Assembly (NCBI RefSeq): GCF_025947185.1
Contig: NZ_CP110001.1
Coordinates: 1,612,001-1,676,000, forward strand
DNA length: 64,000 nucleotides
From: Flavobacterium sp. N2038
GTDB taxonomy: Bacteria; Bacteroidota; Bacteroidia; Flavobacteriales; Flavobacteriaceae
Reading direction: 5' to 3'
Under the pieces are notes generated by a model. The model did no database searches. It saw nothing but the letters and a program-made list of their open reading frames with translations, and had not been told where the DNA came from. Numbering within the stretch: position 1 is the first letter of the stretch; the number at the start of each line of letters is the position of its first letter. Made by a program: the position numbers and the translations under genes. Below are positions 10,095 through 55,674 of the stretch, piece by piece.

Positions 10095-11849
10095 TTATAA
10101 AGGAAAGGTGAAACTTATTTTAATACCCTTTTCGAAATTATTGTCAAAAGTAATTGTTCCTTTTATTGTTTTAATACGGTTTTCCACATTTTGAAGATCA
10201 TTTTTTAAAATTTGTCGATTATGATCTGTTTCCATCCCATTATTGATATAGGTAAAAGTGATGTTTTTAGAGGCTAATTTGAAGGTAAGACTCACTAAAC
10301 TAGGATTGTTATGCTTGGCCGAATTTAAAAGTATCTCCTGAATAATTCTGTAAACTGTAATCTTTTTATTTTTTTCAATTTTATTCCAGGGTACAGTATC
10401 GAAGCCATTTAATAGAATATTCAGGTTTGAGGTTTTAAAACCGGCAATCATTTCTTTTAAATCCTGTGGATAATTTATATCAGTTTTGATTAAACTATTC
10501 TCTTTAGAAATATTTCTGGTTTTAGAATAGATTTGATCCAAATGGAGAAGTAAAATTTCTTTATTTTCTTTTTGTTGCAAATCTTTGGCTTTAGCCAAGG
10601 TTAAAGTTTGGTAAACATCATTGGTAAGTTCATTATGCAATTTTTGAGCTATTCTTGATTCGCTTTCGTAGATGGCTTTGAAATTTTCTTTTTTTCGTTT
10701 CGAGGTTAAATAAAAATAAAGAAATAATAGTATCGTGAAGGTCAAAGAAATTATGGTATAGGAAATAAAGCTTCTGTTTTTTTGTCTTTGTAATTGAAGT
10801 TCGTTTTCTGCTTTTTGCGCTTTAAGTAATAAATTTTCTTCTTTATCTTTATTTGAATTGTATTTAATATTAGAAGACTGATTCTTTTGATTTATTCTAA
10901 GATTAGTAATACTGTCAGTAAACTTAACGTAAAGATTGGAATATTTTTTTAAGTCACTGCCTTTACTGCATTGAATAAGGGAATACAGTGAATATTTCTT
11001 TGATTGATAATTGTTAATTTCACGAGCTATTTTATAAGCCTTTTCAGCATACTTTTTAGCAAGTGAGGGATTCTTTTTTAAATAGTAATCGGAAAGGTTT
11101 GAATAACTAAGTGCAACATTGTCGAAATCATCTGTTTCAAGTCTTATTTTTAGTGCTTCATTAAAATAGTGCAAAGACTTAGAGTCGTTTGTTTGAAAGT
11201 AACAAATTCCTAAATTATCTAACGATATGGCAAAATCTTTTAATTCATAATCTTTAAGAGTATTAGTTTTTTTGTTTTCTGCCAAAAAACCTTCAGATGT
11301 TAGTTTACTGTATATCTTAATAGCTCTTTTGTAATCTTTTTGATGCATGTAGGTTAGTCCTATATTTGCTAAGGCATTTGACTTTCTTCGTTCCTTAGTG
11401 TTTAAGTTGTAAGCTTTTTTAAAATATAAGATGGCATTATCAAAATTTTTTGTTCTAAGATAAGAACAGCCTAAGATATTATATGTGTCCCATGCAAATC
11501 TTGGCTTTTTTAAATACTTTAAGTGAGGTAGTATTTTGATTACGGTTGCCTCGCTTTGTACATAATCGCCTTGATCTAGATAGATATATCCTATCGATAT
11601 TAACGCATCAACATAATCGATTCTATCTTTTACGGGATCGGATATGGCAATAATTCTCTCATAAAGTTTGAAAGCGTTTTTATTGTCAAATTTGTCAAAG
11701 TAATTATCAGCAATTATTGTAAGTCTTTTAACTTCTGCCGTGTTGTTACACTTTTTTACAAAAACTGGTTTCTCTTTTTTGCAAGAAGTTGAAACTACGA
11801 GCAAAAAAAATGCAGAAACTAGAATTTTAACTAAATCAGAAATTTTCAT
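10095..11849 (-). CDS. TPR-repeat sensor kinase, third of three paralogues (ATP site eroded)
   Basis: A 584-residue protein with a lipoprotein-like signal (SAFFLLVVSTSC then KKEK), several TPR motifs at about 40-310 (for example AWDTYNILGCSYLRTKNFDNA), one membrane helix near 362-383 (ISYTIISLTFTILLFLYFYL), a His-box (ESRIAQKLHNELTNDVYQ) and a HisKA_3-type ATPase domain. The N box is present (IIQEILLNSAKHN), but the usual DNG is NNG (YINNGMETD) and the second glycine box reads LKNDLQNVENR without glycines. Kinase activity may therefore be weak or lost. It lies 26 bases after the second paralogue and 10 bases before the response regulator. Confidence 0.88.
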   Translation of the reverse strand: MKISDLVKILVSAFFLLVVSTSCKKEKPVFVKKCNNTAEVKRLTIIADNYFDKFDNKNAFKLYERIIAISDPVKDRIDYVDALISIGYIYLDQGDYVQSEATVIKILPHLKYLKKPRFAWDTYNILGCSYLRTKNFDNAILYFKKAYNLNTKERRKSNALANIGLTYMHQKDYKRAIKIYSKLTSEGFLAENKKTNTLKDYELKDFAISLDNLGICYFQTNDSKSLHYFNEALKIRLETDDFDNVALSYSNLSDYYLKKNPSLAKKYAEKAYKIAREINNYQSKKYSLYSLIQCSKGSDLKKYSNLYVKFTDSITNLRINQKNQSSNIKYNSNKDKEENLLLKAQKAENELQLQRQKNRSFISYTIISLTFTILLFLYFYLTSKRKKENFKAIYESESRIAQKLHNELTNDVYQTLTLAKAKDLQQKENKEILLLHLDQIYSKTRNISKENSLIKTDINYPQDLKEMIAGFKTSNLNILLNGFDTVPWNKIEKNKKITVYRIIQEILLNSAKHNNPSLVSLTFKLASKNITFTYINNGMETDHNRQILKNDLQNVENRIKTIKGTITFDNNFEKGIKISFTFPL

Positions 11850-43354: not shown

Positions 43355-44482
43355 TTATATTTTGGACAATTTTTTTGCTGCTGACTCTAATGTAAAATTG
43401 TCTTTGGCAAAGCAAAAACGGATTAATTTCTGGTCTTTATGATCTGAATAAAAAGAGGAAATAGGAATAGCGGCAACACCATGATCTGTAATTAGTTTTT
43501 TACAAAAAGTAATATCGTCATCGTTTGAAATATTGGCATACGAGGCAACCTGAAAATATGTCCCTTCGCATGGTTTAAGTTCAAATTGGCTATTTTTAAG
43601 CAGTTTCTGGAAATAATCTCTCTTTTCCTGATAGAATTTCCCAAGCAAATTAACATCAACAACATCTAAATATTCGCTGATGGCAAACTGAGAAATACTG
43701 TTTACGCTGAAAACCAGAAATTGATGTACTTTTTTGATTTCTTTCATTAAGTGTTCAGGAGCAACAGTGTAGCCAATTTTCCATCCCGTGATATGAAATG
43801 ATTTTCCAAATGAAGAAACCATAATACAGCGATCTAAAAGAAAACTTTTGGTATGTGCCGAAATGTGTTTTTCTTCAAAAGTGATGTATTCGTAAACTTC
43901 ATCAGATAAAACCAGTAGATCGGGATATTTTGATAGTAATTTTTCTAATTGAAGGAAATCTGCTTCGGTTAATATTTTTCCAGTCGGATTATGCGGATTG
44001 TTGATGATAATCATTCGGCTTTTCTCCGAACAAGCTTTTTCGATTATTTCCCAATTTGGGGTATAATCATCATTTAAGGCTACCCGAACAGGTTTTGCTT
44101 TACAAAGTAAAACAGGTGACTCGTATGAATCATAACTCGGATCGAGAATAATGACTTCGTCATTTTCTTTTACCAAAGCCAAAATTGAAGTAAAAATTCC
44201 CTGTGTGGCCCCAGCTGTAACTAAAAGTTCTAAATCAGGATTGATTGTTCTGTTATAAGAACTCTGAGTTAACGCTGCAATTTTACTCATCAATGGCGGA
44301 TAACCTGCCATTGGCGTATATTGATGGACGTTTTCCTTTGATAATCGGGCAACAATATCCGTCAATCTTTCATCAACAGGAAAATTTGGAAATCCTTGAG
44401 AAAGATTTATCGCATTATATTCGACTGCCATTTTTGACATTACCGTAAAAATGCTTGTGGTTACGTTTGGGAGTTTACTCAT
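43355..44482 (-). CDS. Class I/II aminotransferase (methionine aminotransferase-like)
   Basis: A 375-residue PLP enzyme of the YbdL/kynurenine-aminotransferase group: NLSQGFPNFPVDERL, PHNPTGKILTEADF, SDEVYEYITFE, and the PLP Lys in SSFGKSFHITGWKIGY. Probably transaminates methionine or aromatic amino acids. The start MSKLPNVTTSIFTVMSKMA recurs as a 5' fossil at 46438-46539, evidence for a duplication. It follows the TonB-C protein gene by 47 bases. Confidence 0.93.
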   Translation of the reverse strand: MSKLPNVTTSIFTVMSKMAVEYNAINLSQGFPNFPVDERLTDIVARLSKENVHQYTPMAGYPPLMSKIAALTQSSYNRTINPDLELLVTAGATQGIFTSILALVKENDEVIILDPSYDSYESPVLLCKAKPVRVALNDDYTPNWEIIEKACSEKSRMIIINNPHNPTGKILTEADFLQLEKLLSKYPDLLVLSDEVYEYITFEEKHISAHTKSFLLDRCIMVSSFGKSFHITGWKIGYTVAPEHLMKEIKKVHQFLVFSVNSISQFAISEYLDVVDVNLLGKFYQEKRDYFQKLLKNSQFELKPCEGTYFQVASYANISNDDDITFCKKLITDHGVAAIPISSFYSDHKDQKLIRFCFAKDNFTLESAAKKLSKI

Positions 44483-44529
44483 GGTAAAAGTTTGATTTGG
44501 AGAAACTTGTTTGAGAAAATATTAGGATG

Positions 44530-45321
44530 TTAATTTATAACTATAGGCATAGAATATAAAACTCGAACTACTTTGTTATTTTGTTTTCCGGGAGTCCATT
44601 TTGGAGAATTTTTTAATACTCTAATTGCTTCTGCACCCGTACCGAATCCAATGTCTCTTAAGATTTTTATATCACTTAAAGAGCCATCTTTTTCGATAAT
44701 AAAAGTAGCATAAACTTTTCCTTTTAAATCATTTTGTGGTTTTTTGTAATTGTCTTTTAAAAAATGTTCTAAGGCTTCTTGGCCACCTGGAAATTCAGGT
44801 CTTACTTCTATACCTGCGGTATTATAAACTTGATTTTCTTCTTCAATAACAGGTATAACTGAACTGCTTTGAGTAGAGTTATACAATTTGACTGCGTTTG
44901 GTGGTTCGTTTCCAGTTACATTTATAGGAAATGAATATTGCCATCTTACAGGTTTACCATTTTTCTTTGCAGGAATCCATTTTGGAGATATTTTTAGAAC
45001 TCTAATAGCTTCTTCTCCAGTTCCATGACCAATATCTCTTAAGACTTTTATATTGCTTAATGTTCCATTTTGTTCAACCATAAAAGCAACATAGACTTTA
45101 CCTTTTAAGTTACTTACGTTAGGCATCTTGTAATTTTTCTTAAGAAAATCGTTGTGTAAAGCCTCTGGCCCTCCAGGAAATTCCGGTTTGGTATCTATGG
45201 TTGGAATTTCTTCTGTTTTATTAAGTACTGCATCTGGATCTGATTTGATTGTTGGTTCTTTATATTGTGAAAATGTATTTTGTAGAAAGCAAATCAAAAC
45301 AAGTAGAAGTAACTTTTTCAT
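44530..45321 (-). CDS. Periplasmic protein with two TonB C-terminal domains
   Basis: A 263-residue protein with a signal peptide (MKKLLLLVLICFLQNTFSQ) and two tandem TonB-C domains, each with PEFPGG, LKGKVY and AIRVLK...PKW motifs (about 48-150 and 170-262). There is no inner-membrane anchor or Pro-rich linker, so it is not a classical energy-transducing TonB. The second domain is closely similar to the pseudogene at 46585. Just upstream (45336-45410) is a decayed 3' end of the methyltransferase gene, so this gene once followed it directly. Confidence 0.88.
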   Translation of the reverse strand: MKKLLLLVLICFLQNTFSQYKEPTIKSDPDAVLNKTEEIPTIDTKPEFPGGPEALHNDFLKKNYKMPNVSNLKGKVYVAFMVEQNGTLSNIKVLRDIGHGTGEEAIRVLKISPKWIPAKKNGKPVRWQYSFPINVTGNEPPNAVKLYNSTQSSSVIPVIEEENQVYNTAGIEVRPEFPGGQEALEHFLKDNYKKPQNDLKGKVYATFIIEKDGSLSDIKILRDIGFGTGAEAIRVLKNSPKWTPGKQNNKVVRVLYSMPIVIN

Positions 45322-45335
45322 TACGGTGTTTTTAG

Positions 45336-45410
45336 GGTTAGTTTACATTTACATGAATTACAAAAATTGTCAGTCTGTTATGAAGATTTACTTTCAATTT
45401 TTTTGGATAG
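45336..45410 (-). pseudogene. Decayed 3' fossil of the methyltransferase gene (copy 1)
   Basis: Read on the minus strand in the old frame it gives KVNLHNRLTIFVIHVNV against KVDLHNRPTIFIIHKM of the intact gene at 47021. The nucleotide alignment continues through CAGTCTGTTATG and TTTTAATTTTTT-like flanks. The stop codon and most of the gene are lost. Confidence 0.75.
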
Positions 45411-45477
45411 AAATTTTAATTATAAATGTACTTGTTTTTTGAAGTAAATCAATATTTTTTTCTTTTTTAGATATAAA

Positions 45478-45529
45478 AAAAACATTAAATAATGACTTCG
45501 TGCCAGTAAATCAGTTATTTAATGTTTTT
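45478..45529 (-). terminator. Terminator of the 175-residue exported protein gene
   Basis: Fifteen-bp perfect stem AAAAACATTAAATAA/TTATTTAATGTTTTT with a 22-base loop, and T run on the minus strand. Confidence 0.7.
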
Positions 45530-45541
45530 CTTATAATTGTT

Positions 45542-46069
45542 TTATTGTATAATTTCTCCGGTTGGTTTGATTACTAGTTTGATAATTTCATTGTCTTTTT
45601 TGATTTTCAGATTGTATTCTTTTTGTTTGATATCGCCTTGTTCTTGAGTATACGTAAATTTGTCTTTTACTATTGTATATCCTGGGTATTTCGAATATAT
45701 CGCGTAAATTACTTTGCCGGGAAGTTTTACGTTTTCATAATTTTCAACGACACTGGTTAGTTTTCCATTCTCATTATAGGTTGCAGATAAGGAGCCTTGT
45801 GCGGATTCAAAGACTACTAAGTACGAGTCATAGCCTTCATAATCTTTTCCTAAATTATAAGAAATAAAATGTTTTTGAAGCGCTTTAACTCCTTGATCCG
45901 GATTTCTGTCAGGTAAGTAAATCGAAAAATCCTTTCCTACGCTTTTAATTACAACAGCAGGTAAATCTGCCATTTTTATTTCAGCATCTTTTGGGCTGAT
46001 AATTTCGCCTTGAGAGTAAGAATTTGTCGTCAGACTAAAAAATAATATAAAAAAAAGAAATGCTTTCAT
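45542..46069 (-). CDS. Exported protein of unknown function
   Basis: A 175-residue protein with a signal peptide (MKAFLFFILFFSLTTNSYSQ). The repeated AVVIKSVGKDFSIYLP, ATYNENGKLTSVVE, YSKYPGYTIVKDKFT pattern resembles PepSY-like/BLIP-like secreted proteins common in Bacteroidota, but I am not sure of the fold. It has its own terminator and sits between two duplicated blocks, absent from the other copy. Confidence 0.75.
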   Translation of the reverse strand: MKAFLFFILFFSLTTNSYSQGEIISPKDAEIKMADLPAVVIKSVGKDFSIYLPDRNPDQGVKALQKHFISYNLGKDYEGYDSYLVVFESAQGSLSATYNENGKLTSVVENYENVKLPGKVIYAIYSKYPGYTIVKDKFTYTQEQGDIKQKEYNLKIKKDNEIIKLVIKPTGEIIQ

Positions 46070-46404
46070 GATATTTAATTTTAAAATATTAATTAATTAA
46101 GTTAATCTTAATGATTTAAAATTATATGAAGGCTTCCTTATTTTCTTCCCCTTTTTGATGATGTTTTTAATGTTAAATCATTAAACTGTAGGGTTTTGAG
46201 TGTTTTTTTTTGGAACCAGATAAAAGTAACTCTTTTACCTATGTATAAGAGTTAAAAATATCTTTATAGATTGTTAATTTAAAGCAGTTTAAGAGTGTTT
46301 TTTTAAGAAAAGATTATAACGGATCAACTCACATTGTTTAATAACAACAAGTGGTGTAGAAATTTGAACTAATAATTACTGATATCTACCGGAATTATAG
46401 TGAT
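46070..46404. other. Intergenic region
   Basis: AT-rich, with TTAATTAATTAAGTTAAT and AACTCTTTTACC...AAGAGTT inverted segments; no gene seen. Confidence 0.4.
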
Positions 46405-46447
46405 TACATTTTGTGAATAATAAAAATCGTAGGTCTGCTATGTAAAA
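46405..46447 (-). pseudogene. 3' fossil of the methyltransferase gene (copy 2)
   Basis: About 43 bases match the 3' end of the intact gene (47020-47062) with two differences, keeping RPTIFIIHKM and its stop. It is joined directly to the aminotransferase fossil, marking a duplication breakpoint. Confidence 0.9.
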
Positions 46448-46539
46448 ATTCTCTGAGAAAGATTTATCGTATTATATTCGGATGCCATTTTGGCTATTAC
46501 CGTAAAGATGCTTGTCATTATTTTTGGAAGTTTGCTCAT
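46438..46539 (-). pseudogene. 5' fossil of the aminotransferase gene
   Basis: An ATG at 46539 opens MSKLPKIMTSIFTVIAKMAS and continues EYNTINLSQ, matching the first 29 residues of the aminotransferase at 44482. After NLSQ the frame runs into RIFT and a stop, where the sequence switches to the methyltransferase 3' fossil. Confidence 0.9.
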
Positions 46540-46584
46540 GACAAAGTTTGGTTTTGAGGAAATTTGTGAGTGAATAAAATAAAC

Positions 46585-47000
46585 TTAATTTATTACCATT
46601 GCAATGGAGTAGAGAACTCTAATGGTTTTATTGTTTTGTTTTCCAGGGCTCCATTTTGGAAATAGTTTCAAAACTCTTATGGCTTCCGTGCCTGTTTCGT
46701 GTCCAAGATCTCTTAAAATTTTAGTATCGCTTAATGATCCGTCTTTTTCAATAATAAAAGTGGCGTATATTTTTCCTTTTAAACCTTCTTTTGGATTTTT
46801 GAAATTTTGTTTTATAAATCCGTTCATTGCGTCTACTCCTCCCGGAATTCTGGTCTTACATCTATTCCTGCTGTATTGTAAACTTGGTTTCCTTCAATAA
46901 TAGCTCTTTCTGAATCACTTATATATCTTTTAGGTTCTTCAATTTGAGAAAATGCATTTTGAGCAAAACAAATTGCAATCAGGATTAAAAACTTTTTCAT
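46585..47000 (-). pseudogene. Single TonB-C domain protein, frameshifted
   Basis: The start at 47000 gives a signal peptide (MKKFLILIAICFAQNAFSQ) and NQVYNTAGIDVRPEF, then a stop (REE*). One missing base near 46848-46852 would restore PGGVDAMNGFIKQNFK and the domain LKGKIYATFIIEKDGSLSD to its end at 46585, 138 residues in all. It is closest to the second domain of the 44530 gene. The frameshift is either real decay or a sequence error; several other frameshifts lie nearby. Confidence 0.85.
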
Positions 47001-47020
47001 AAGGAGGTTTTAAGGTTAGC

Positions 47021-47734
47021 TTACATTTTATGAATAATAAAAATCGTAGGTCTGTTATGTAAATCCACTTTTAATTTTTTCCAATCCGAAACTTTCATTG
47101 TTTTGATGAACTCTGTTGGTAAAGTAATATCTGTAGCAATACAAAGATGTGTTGACGGGTTTAAAATCTGTAAAAGATCTTCAACCAATTTGTTGTTTCT
47201 ATAAGGTGTTTCAATAAAAATTTGAGACTGATTTTTATCCTGAGATAATTTCTCAAAATGCCTTAAAGCTGATTTTTTCTCGTCTTTGTCAATTGGCAAA
47301 TATCCATTGAAAGTAAAACTTTGTCCATTCATTCCGGAAGCCATCATAGCTAATAAAATAGAAGAAGGGCCAACTAAAGGTACCACTTGAATCCCTTTTT
47401 CATGCGCTAATTTTACGATAACTGCACCTGGATCTGCTACACCCGGACAACCTGCTTCACTCATTAAACCCATATTTTTTCCTTCTAATAAAGGTTTGAT
47501 AAAGTCTAGATGTTCACTTGGTTCTGTACGTTTGTTAAGGGTAAAAAGAACCAGTTCAGATTGTTTCTTTTCAGGATAAACTGCTTTTATAGATTTTCGA
47601 GCTGTCTTGTCATTTTCTACAATGTAGTGGTCTATCAACTCTATACTTCTTCTTACTGTTTGTGGTAAAACATCCATTGGATCGCTTTCACCCATTGTAG
47701 TTGGAATTAAATATAGTTTTCCGAGAAGTTTCAT
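47021..47734 (-). CDS. RsmI-like SAM-dependent methyltransferase
   Basis: A 237-residue protein of the tetrapyrrole-methylase fold (GKLYLIPTTMGE; LMSEAGCPGVADPGA; VPLVGPSSILLAMMASGMNG), as in 16S rRNA 2'-O-methyltransferase RsmI but shorter than the approximately 285 residues of that enzyme. It lies 73 bases after the phosphatase and 20 bases before the TonB-C pseudogene. Its 3' end occurs twice more as fossils. Confidence 0.88.
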   Translation of the reverse strand: MKLLGKLYLIPTTMGESDPMDVLPQTVRRSIELIDHYIVENDKTARKSIKAVYPEKKQSELVLFTLNKRTEPSEHLDFIKPLLEGKNMGLMSEAGCPGVADPGAVIVKLAHEKGIQVVPLVGPSSILLAMMASGMNGQSFTFNGYLPIDKDEKKSALRHFEKLSQDKNQSQIFIETPYRNNKLVEDLLQILNPSTHLCIATDITLPTEFIKTMKVSDWKKLKVDLHNRPTIFIIHKM

Positions 47735-48284: not shown

Positions 48285-49711
48285 TTATAGCGTTAGTTTT
48301 TTGTTGATATCTTCGACAAACTTTTTGAATTGTTTGTCTGTAGAAACTAAATTGTCAACAGTTTTGCAAGCATGTAAAACGGTAGCGTGATCGCGATCTC
48401 CAATTTGTGAACCAATGTTTGCCAAAGAAGCTTTGGTAAATTTCTTTGCAAAAAACATAGCCAATTGTCTCGCTTGTACAACGTGCCTCTTTCTTGTTTT
48501 AGATTGAAGCGTTTCTATATCCAACTGGAAATAATCAGATACGATTTTTTGAATATAATCGATAGAGATTTCTCTCTTTACGTTTTTAACAAATTTTTCA
48601 ACTACACTTTTTGCTAATTCAATTGTAACTTCTTTTTTGTTGAAAGAAGATGAGCAATTAGCGAAATAATTGCGCCTTCAAGTTCTCTAACGTTAGATTT
48701 GATATTACGGGCAACATATTCTAAAATGTCTTCCGGCATATCAACACCATCACGATAAAGAATGTTCTTCAGGATCGAAATACGAGTTTCGTAATCAGGC
48801 TGATGTAATTCTGCAGATAATCCCCATTTAAAACGAGATAATAAACGTTGTTCAATATCTTGCATGTCAACCGGAGCTTTATCAGATGTTAAGATTACCT
48901 GTTTTCCGTTTTGGTGCAAATAGTTGAAAATGTGGAAGAATACGTCCTGAGTTCCTGATTTTCCAGATAAAAACTGAACGTCGTCAATAATTAAAACATC
49001 AATCAGCTGATAAAAATGAATAAAATCATTACGATTATTCTTTTTTACAGAATCAATATATTGTTGTGTGAAAATTTCGGCAGAAATATATAAAACCGTT
49101 TTTTCTGGATATTTGTCTTTTACTTCAACACCAATAGCATGTGCTAAGTGTGTTTTCCTAAACCAACTCCTCCAAAAATCAATAAAGGATTAAAAGAAGT
49201 TCCTCCAGGTTTATTGGCAACAGCCATACCCGCAGATCGAGCCAAACGGTTTGAATCTCCTTCAAGGAAATTGTCAAAACTGTAATTTGGGTTTAGCTGT
49301 GATTCAATTTTTAAATTTCGGATTCCCGGAATTACAAAAGGATTTTTAAGCTCAGGATTTAAGTTTTTAAACGGAGCATCCACCTCTTGTGGTTTTCATT
49401 GGCACTCTGTTGGAACTTGGCAGCTGTTCGGTAAACGGCTGTTTGTTTCCATAAGTGTTTTCCATTTTAATTTTATACAGTAACTTTGCGTTTTTTCCCA
49501 GTTCTTTGGTAAGCGCAACTTTCAATAATTTAACGTAATGTTCTTCTAGCCATTCGTAGAAAAATTTACTAGGTACCTGAATGTATAATGCGTTGTCGGT
49601 TAGCTCAACTGATTTGATTGGTTCAAACCAAGTTTTATATGCTTGATCTTGAATATTGTCTTTTATAAAGGACAAACAGTTTTCCCATACCGATTGAGCA
49701 GTTTTAGTCAT
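48285..49711 (-). pseudogene. dnaA: Chromosomal replication initiator DnaA, with three single-base indels
   Basis: All domains are present but in different frames. Domain I is intact from 49711 (MTKTAQSVWENCLSF). Breaks: an extra C near 49393 (AAAACCACAAG where AAAACACAAG restores MKTQEVDAPF); a missing A near 49155 (GGAAAACAC, needed five As, restoring GLGKTHLAHA); a missing base near 48654 (CTCATCTT, restoring LIAQSSFNKK). Between them AAA+ elements (LIIDDVQFLSG; ILTSDKAPVDM) and the HTH (DRDHATVLHACKTV) are normal. Corrected, the protein is 475 residues, the normal length. The gene is essential, so sequence errors are more likely than real decay. Confidence 0.93.
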
Positions 49712-54430: not shown

Positions 54431-55674
54431 TTATTCATAACGTAATGCTTCAATAGGATCTAATTTTGAAGCTTTAATGGCCGGATATAAACCGGAAACT
54501 ATAGCAACCATAAAGCTGGTAGCAAATGCAGCGAAAATTGCCATCCACGGAATTACGAATGCAAAATTCATTATACCTGCAAAAGCAAAACCAATTAAAA
54601 TTCCCAATACAATTCCGACCAATCCACCAATTTGTCCAATTAATAAAGTTTCGATAAAAAACTGAACCGAAATGGTCACTTTTGTGGCGCCGAGAGCTTT
54701 ACGAACACCAATTTCTCTCGTTCGCTCTGTAACAGATACAATCATAATGTTCATTAAGGCAATAGATGATCCTAGAATGGTGATAATGCTAATGATCCAG
54801 GAAGCCCAGCCCAGATATTTTGTGATTCCTAAAATCCTGTTAATTAAATCATCACTTCGGCCAATACCAAAATTATTATCACGAACCGGACTTAGTTTAC
54901 GAACTCTGCGCATAGTACTTGTTGCATTGTCTGCTGCTTCGTCCAGAAGTTCTTTTTTAGCAACCATAACACTTATAGTGTAATTGATGTTTGGAGCTGT
55001 AAATAAAGAACGTGCTACCTGAATAGGGATTAAAACACGTAAATCCTGACTGTGTCCAAACGTAGATCCTTTCTCTTTTAAAACTCCAATCACTTTAAAA
55101 CGCGCACCTCGAATAGAGATTATTTTATCTATTGGATTAACATCTTTTAATAAACCTTTCTCAAAATCTGATCCAACAACGCAGGAATAAGTGTTGTTGT
55201 CTATATCAAATTGATTGAAAGATCGCCCTAAAGTGGTTTCTAAACCTGAATTGGTAATAAAATGTTCATCAACACCTACAATTGTAATTTCGGGATCTGT
55301 TTTTGTATCTAAATATTTTACTTCTGCTTTTGATGTTGCTGTAAAAGAAAGCGAGGTTTCGGTAAATGGATATTTGTATTTGTTTTTGAAAGCAACAGCT
55401 TCCGGTAAGAAATTATGGGATTGATAACTTCACGTTCGTTTCCGCCACGATTTCGAACCGTGTTTTCATATTGGTTGATGTTAAAAGTATTCGCACCCAT
55501 TGAGGCAAAATTAGTCGAAACGGTGTTTTCAAGTGCGGTTACAACGGTTAGAATTCCTACCAGCGCCGTAATCCCGATGGCAATAATTAAAACAGTAAGA
55601 ATGGTTCGCAGCAATTGAGTTTTGATAGAACCAAAAGCAATTCGGATATTTTCTTTAAATAATTTTAGCATCAT
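54431..55674 (-). pseudogene. MacB-like ABC transporter permease, one-base frameshift
   Basis: The start at 55674 gives an N-terminal helix (LLRTILTVLIIAIGITALVGI) and the periplasmic core start (SMGANTFNIN). After REVINPIISYR the frame breaks near 55404; inserting one base (CCGG to CCGGG) restores EAVAFKNKYKYPFTE and continues to the three C-terminal helices and the end IKASKLDPIEALRYE at 54431 (414 residues). Family members export peptides, lipoproteins or antibiotics with an ATPase; none is adjacent. It may be a sequencing error, since dnaA nearby is affected too. Confidence 0.88.

Follow-up and report, generated by a model that had tools for sequence, protein, structure and literature searches.

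Between an rsmI-like methyltransferase gene and an aminotransferase gene (AT), Flavobacterium sp. N2038 carries three small genes, separated by broken copies of the ends of the two flanking genes. The locus occupies positions 43355-47734 of a stretch of 64,000 nucleotides (contig NZ_CP110001.1, positions 1,612,001 to 1,676,000), which is here called the window and whose numbering is used throughout. A preliminary description, made from the letters of the sequence, took these fragments for the scar of a tandem duplication that had since decayed. The three-module array (TonB-C, P175, TonB-C) is instead probably the product of two or more rounds of additive recombination with the DNA of related species. 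Additive uptake is favored because the closest relatives of the individual modules lie in different species.

On the minus strand, read from high to low coordinates, the order of the locus is rsmI, TonBC2, an AT fossil, an rsmI fossil, P175, a second rsmI fossil, TonBC1 and AT. Both anchors are intact. The left one, rsmI (47734-47021), matches PF00590 above its cutoff and TIGR00096 below it, while the right one, AT (44482-43355), matches the NCBIfam methionine aminotransferase model NF006569 above cutoff. The first joint, at about 46446/46447, is formed by the start of an aminotransferase gene running directly into the end of an rsmI gene. The AT fossil (46539 down to about 46447) comprises about nt 1-92 of the gene, is 84-85% identical to the intact AT start and matches an AT-start model with an nhmmer E-value of 1.5e-20; its breakpoint aligns with those of two other loci, L042 and L141. 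The adjoining rsmI fossil (46446-46404) consists of the last 43 nt of the gene. It is identical to the end of the intact rsmI (47021-47063) at 41 of 43 positions and matches an rsmI-end model with an E-value of 9.3e-7. Intact genes from as many as 122 loci, with some species represented twice, went into the nhmmer models, which covered the last 180 nt of rsmI and the first 240 nt of AT. When the interval sequences were reversed, the two models gave no matches at E 0.01, so the rsmI and AT fragments are not chance resemblances. Much of the preliminary description is borne out by these results. The 43-base repeat with two differences is there, at coordinates one base lower than first given, as are the directly joined AT fragment with the peptides quoted from it, the joint at about 46447 and a second TonB-C gene beside the intact methyltransferase (47000-46585). 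The off-diagonal repeats expected of a self dot-plot were found by a repeat search of the interval, and the fragments do derive from the two flanking genes. Two features had been overlooked, an intact P175 gene and a second rsmI-like remnant at about 45344-45396.

These two features change the interpretation of the middle of the array. P175 (46069-45542, minus strand) is an intact gene of 175 codons. The N-terminus of its 175-aa product resembles a signal peptide by eye, and the protein has no match in Pfam, even at E 5, or in NCBIfam. From 96 nt past the stop of the fossil rsmI up to P175, the window is 83% identical to the stretch lying 96-333 nt past the real rsmI stop in L061, and 79-82% identical to the corresponding sequence in L068, L113 and L059. 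On the other side of the gene, a spacer of native type (45541-45397), which contains an inverted repeat with arms at 45472-45492 and 45515-45535, can be aligned with L141, L113, L080, L068 and L061 as far as the AT start codon in these relatives. Beyond that position the window turns into rsmI sequence, beginning about 56 nt before the rsmI stop. This second rsmI end (about 45396-45344) therefore marks a second joint, at about 45396. By blastn, it is 80% identical to the window's own rsmI over 61 nt (E 3e-10) and 80% identical to that of L035 over 80 nt (E 5e-14), and nhmmer recovers it at E 5.8e-5. Because P175 and its spacers are in register with loci of the order rsmI-P175-AT, the 43-base piece upstream is best read as an old native rsmI end, and it likely represents the former end of the resident gene. 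P175 is also found between rsmI and AT in L113, whose rsmI is 93% identical to that of the window, and in ten more distant loci (L117-L119, L121-L126 and L130), with rsmI identities of 82-87%. The distant loci were fetched for having P175 and give no estimate of its frequency; a relative of P175 occurs somewhere in the genome in 79 of 398 sampled genomes of the genus. P175 would be an old resident of the rsmI-AT interval. Elsewhere, relatives of P175 stand in rows of two or three in L133, L139 and L140, with no rsmI or AT found nearby, and in L120 the order rsmI-P175 is followed by an SDR gene, with no aminotransferase match between.

The two TonB-C genes of the window likewise have separate affinities. 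TonBC2 (47000-46585, PF03544) is a single-domain TonB_C gene that starts 20 nt past the rsmI stop and contains one frameshift near 46830. Its nearest relatives are in L035 and L064, at 90% identity. TonBC1 (45321-44530) has two domains, with PF03544 matching in two stretches, and is nearest to L078 over the whole gene (83%) and to L032 and L031 for the last domain (86%). The last-domain DNA of the two genes is only 75% identical, and they are not mutual nearest relatives, each ranking its partner 14th or 16th. Among the relatives of the first domain of the two-domain gene, the last domain of that gene is at rank 6 and the other TonB_C gene at rank 28. The same pattern extends to each of the five loci that carry a pair of TonB-C genes (the window, L031, L042, L072 and L094), where the partner gene ranks from 14th to 73rd; in none of the five are the copies each other's closest relatives. 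Two-domain TonB_C genes also stand at the rsmI-AT junction in L032, L043, L065, L066 and L078. In addition, an AT 5' fossil is in frame with the start of the second TonB_C gene in two species (L031, 9235-9699; L094, inter-gene positions 538-1008), and that gene would then begin with an aminotransferase N-terminus (MSKLPN...), the frame having been read by eye.

These relationships bear directly on tandem duplication. As the sole cause of the array it was rejected on the relationships of the copies and on gene content, as there are two joints with P175 between them. The ancestral order methyltransferase, TonB-C, aminotransferase, which had been assumed in the preliminary description, does hold as the simple order in most relatives, but the native order of the window is read as rsmI-P175-AT. 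A single duplication also fails to account for the spacers in native register between the copies, the partner ranks of 14 and 16 of the TonB-C genes, and the different nearest relatives of the flanks, the rsmI 3' half and AT. Moreover, decay is unproven for the second TonB-C gene, as the lesion seen in it is one frameshift and other genes of the assembly are frameshifted too.

A more elaborate version would have rsmI 3'-TonB-C-AT 5' duplicated in place, with one or both of the copies later replaced through homologous recombination and P175 entering afterwards. This course of events seems unlikely, although several observations agree with it and weigh against additive uptake. The rsmI fossil of the window is 95% identical to the window's own intact rsmI end, which L046 equals (95%), and less similar to that of the sister L056 (88%). 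This fits tandem duplication too, albeit over only 43 nt. The AT fossil of the window has no clear donor, its best match being L073 (0.87), with the window's own AT at 0.85 and rank 8 of 81. In L031, the AT fossil is nearest to its own AT (rank 1 of 81), and this locus may be a true tandem duplication. Elsewhere the own AT ranks lower, at 18 of 81 in L042, 70 of 81 in L068, 17 of 81 in L094 and 45 of 82 in L141. Furthermore, L042 has precisely the order that a tandem duplication predicts, and recombination occurs often enough at the locus for an older duplication to have had its alleles replaced. Against this stand the lack of mutually nearest TonB-C genes at any of the five loci that have two, and the register of the P175 spacers with native loci on both sides. 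In the window and in L141, moreover, the joint parts two different modules, TonB-C and P175, and L068 has a single foreign copy.

The locus L068, from Flavobacterium sp. JAS, illustrates how such a joint may form. It is continuous through P175 at 89% identity to L061, and the first 199 nt of the following AT are 89-90% identical to its flank neighbours L081 and L096. After nt 199 there is an abrupt joint to the 3' end of a TonB_C gene, followed by a complete AT. Starting at position 10050 of L068, about 1 kb matches L036 at 98-100% identity. Sequence 94-98% identical to L081 resumes at 11250, beyond the AT end, and continues to 12150. The switch from L036-like to native sequence lies inside AT, at about 10950-11250. 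The TonB_C remnant itself is only 85% identical to L036 (200-nt window from 9900), so the donor was a relative of L036 rather than L036 itself. Judged from these similarities, L068 is the product of one illegitimate joint and one homologous crossover, and it shows an additive event of this form in a fresh state, with one foreign copy.

Extending this process to the window, the following sequence of events may be proposed. The native order would have been rsmI-P175-AT, and foreign DNA of the order rsmI-TonB-C-AT would have entered twice. In one entry, homology in rsmI would have been combined with illegitimate joining inside the donor AT start to the old rsmI end, giving joint 1. In the other, homology in AT would have been accompanied by illegitimate joining of the donor rsmI end to the spacer before AT, giving joint 2. 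Each event would add a gene, keep the resident and leave a broken gene end as a scar. We infer the order of these events, the donors and homology-facilitated illegitimate recombination as the mode of joining. Microhomology was considered as the driver of the shared AT/rsmI joint and rejected, as it does not rise above background and leaves the recurrence of the joint unexplained: 8 of 16 positions are identical in the region of joint 1, and 7% of position pairs score equally high. At joint 2, the shared sequence ranges from AATTA to AAAAATTA (5-8 nt) and falls within the chance null, which lends the proposed joining no support.

The first joint of the window is not unique. L042 has the order rsmI-TonB-C-AT5'|rsmI3'-TonB-C-AT, and L141 (genome G201) has the order rsmI-TonB_C-AT5'|rsmI3'-P175-AT, with P175 broken. 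Once aligned, all three joints have AT broken near nt 88-92 and rsmI broken near -56; L042 and L141 can be aligned here gap-free, and the window requires a gap of 9 nt. The same rsmI position (about -56) is used at joint 2 of the window. The upstream flank of the window is 84.7% identical to that of L042 and 84.0% to that of L141, so neither is a close relative of the window. Nevertheless, the P175 of L141 is 86% identical to that of the window and 73-76% identical to the six others compared, and in both its P175 and its rsmI fossil L141 is nearer to the window than to L080, its nearest flank relative. In addition, the rsmI fossil of L141 is of the type CATAAC, against GATAAA in its own rsmI. 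It is thus likely, from these sequence comparisons, that a scar-bearing allele is common to the lineages of the window and L141. A single origin of all three AT|rsmI joints would agree with the breakpoints and with the P175 and rsmI-fossil type of L141. Counting against it, the rsmI fossil of L042 resembles the rsmI type of L042, and the fossils of the three loci are not closest to each other, which independent decay would also produce.

Two further explanations were weighed. Site-specific integration, in which a recombinase would use the rsmI 3' end as its attachment site and the repeated ends would be att duplicates, could explain why one locus holds three copies of the rsmI end. It is nonetheless highly improbable, since no recombinase was found among the proteins scanned in 43355-47734, where the unscanned open reading frames of at least 40 aa reach at most 96 aa, and since the joints carry AT pieces of 60-199 nt whose length differs between loci. 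Even less credible is an artefact of a single-contig, indel-prone assembly. Such errors do seem to occur here: dnaA (48285-49711) and a gene at 54434-55674 are each divided between two reading frames when compared with L056 and L061, giving two frameshifted genes among the 14 matched from L056, which suggests sequencing indels in the assembly. Because these genes are broken, the frameshift in TonBC2 may be a sequencing error as well. However, two other genomes, those of L042 and L141, have an AT/rsmI joint like that of the window, and the copies differ by 5-28%, beyond what assembly errors produce.

The sequences around the array are mosaic, and they carry traces of recombination in more than one lineage. 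In 800-nt windows, L056 (F. branchiicola) is the best match throughout the 20 steps between 47.3 and 54.9 kb and in four of the six between 38.5 and 40.5 kb, but in only one of the 16 between 40.9 and 46.9 kb. In trees of the upstream genes, of the 5' half of rsmI and of a far downstream gene, the window pairs with L056 (support 0.94-1.0), and the SDR tree places the window with L056 and three others, including L100 (0.95). For the 3' half of rsmI and for AT, the trees set the window apart from L056. Up to nt 408 of rsmI, L056 stands between 4th and 20th among 79, and at nt 409-510 it drops to 79th; beyond nt 876 of AT it is back at ranks 6 and 4. The similarity to L056 thus switches near 47330 in rsmI and near 43600 in AT, neither sharply. 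L056 carries its own foreign-looking rsmI 3' half and AT, which indicates that both sisters have recombined. Two features of this mosaic complicate the case for uptake by the window. As L056 is itself recombined, the lineage that changed is not fully separable, and for 41.0-42.2 kb a tree that kept 46 of 81 rows joins the window to L056 (0.989), while 800-nt windows put L037 and L031 first.

In a comparison of 78 taxa over 17 gene segments, agreement with the flanks was measured as the fraction of loci in which the nearest neighbour of the segment is among the top three of the flank. This agreement is 0.39 (0.30-0.48) for the rsmI 3' half and 0.48 (0.39-0.57) for the AT 5' third, compared with 0.57-0.75 in 11 core segments, and the lowest values of all 17 are those of the segments beside the rsmI-AT junction.

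The content of the interval differs between loci. The comparison set comprised 80 named Flavobacterium loci (the best 80 of 430), the window and L141, 82 in all. The interval is empty in 11 of these and holds one single-domain TonB_C gene in 56, including L141 with its broken P175. One two-domain TonB_C gene is found in five, two TonB_C genes in four, P175 in three (including L068) and TonB_C together with P175 in two; the three-gene set occurs in the window only. A match to the AT start is present in 222 of the 398 sampled genomes and is doubled in six: G000, G107 (L042), G201 (L141), G217 (L068), G303 (L094) and G332, the last of which has an interval without an AT fossil. The fossils are short, 43-199 nt across loci. 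In L059, the sequence between TonB_C and P175 contains a strongly decayed AT-like remnant (inter-gene positions of about 502-550). It scores 50, where 100 shuffles reached at most 44, and may possibly be an older, almost erased scar of the same kind. A similar remnant in L051 is not claimed, as its score of 44 lies below the shuffle maximum of 48.

A single clade thus offers a fresh case (L068), intermediate cases (L042, L141 and the window) and a possibly almost erased one (L059). Together they form a natural series for studying how genes come to be added between core genes in the absence of mobile elements, and whether old scars steer later events. It is conceivable, if rather doubtful, that the rsmI-AT junction acts as an integrase-free cassette array, in which modules are framed by rsmI 3' and AT 5' ends and old scars serve as homology blocks that spread modules and entire scar-bearing alleles between Flavobacterium species. 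More generally, scars that resemble decayed tandem duplications can record additive gene uptake, and the closest relatives of the copies tell the two apart.

Several known systems offer comparisons. The literature matches contained no work joining Flavobacterium, 'recombination hotspot' and TonB, and no title on the rsmI-AT locus was among the matches listed; a precedent was found in Vibrio. On competence, one study reports a lack of it in F. johnsoniae under a single tested condition (PMC7965970). Integron gene-cassette arrays are also rows of small genes gathered at one site. Here, however, the ends that recur are fragments of the two flanking genes, and the scanned proteins include no integrase, attC sites not having been searched for. 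In Streptococcus pneumoniae, transformation-induced merodiploids arise as tandem duplications of about 100-900 kb through repeats (PMC3784515). They are alike in being partial duplications made during DNA uptake, but the modules here measure 0.4-0.8 kb and are of different origin. Homology-facilitated illegitimate recombination, described for natural transformation and, in Escherichia coli, for conjugation (PMC3240628), likewise adds foreign DNA beside the resident sequence; it is known from experiments and is here read from natural scars. A further parallel is provided by the orphan immunity-gene arrays of the type VI secretion system in Vibrio cholerae, whose authors propose a similar mechanism and use the failure of copies within a genome to cluster as an argument against duplication (PMC5361080). 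There too, successive foreign modules accumulate at one locus, the old module is shifted and kept, and remnant gene ends are left behind (PMC5361080). The rsmI-AT locus differs in that no toxin or immunity gene was recognised in it, its anchors are two housekeeping genes, and both of these have left lasting scars, in several species. The difference lies in the setting, in which the ends of two core genes themselves persist as scars, residents stand beside newcomers, and a graded series of cases is found within one clade.

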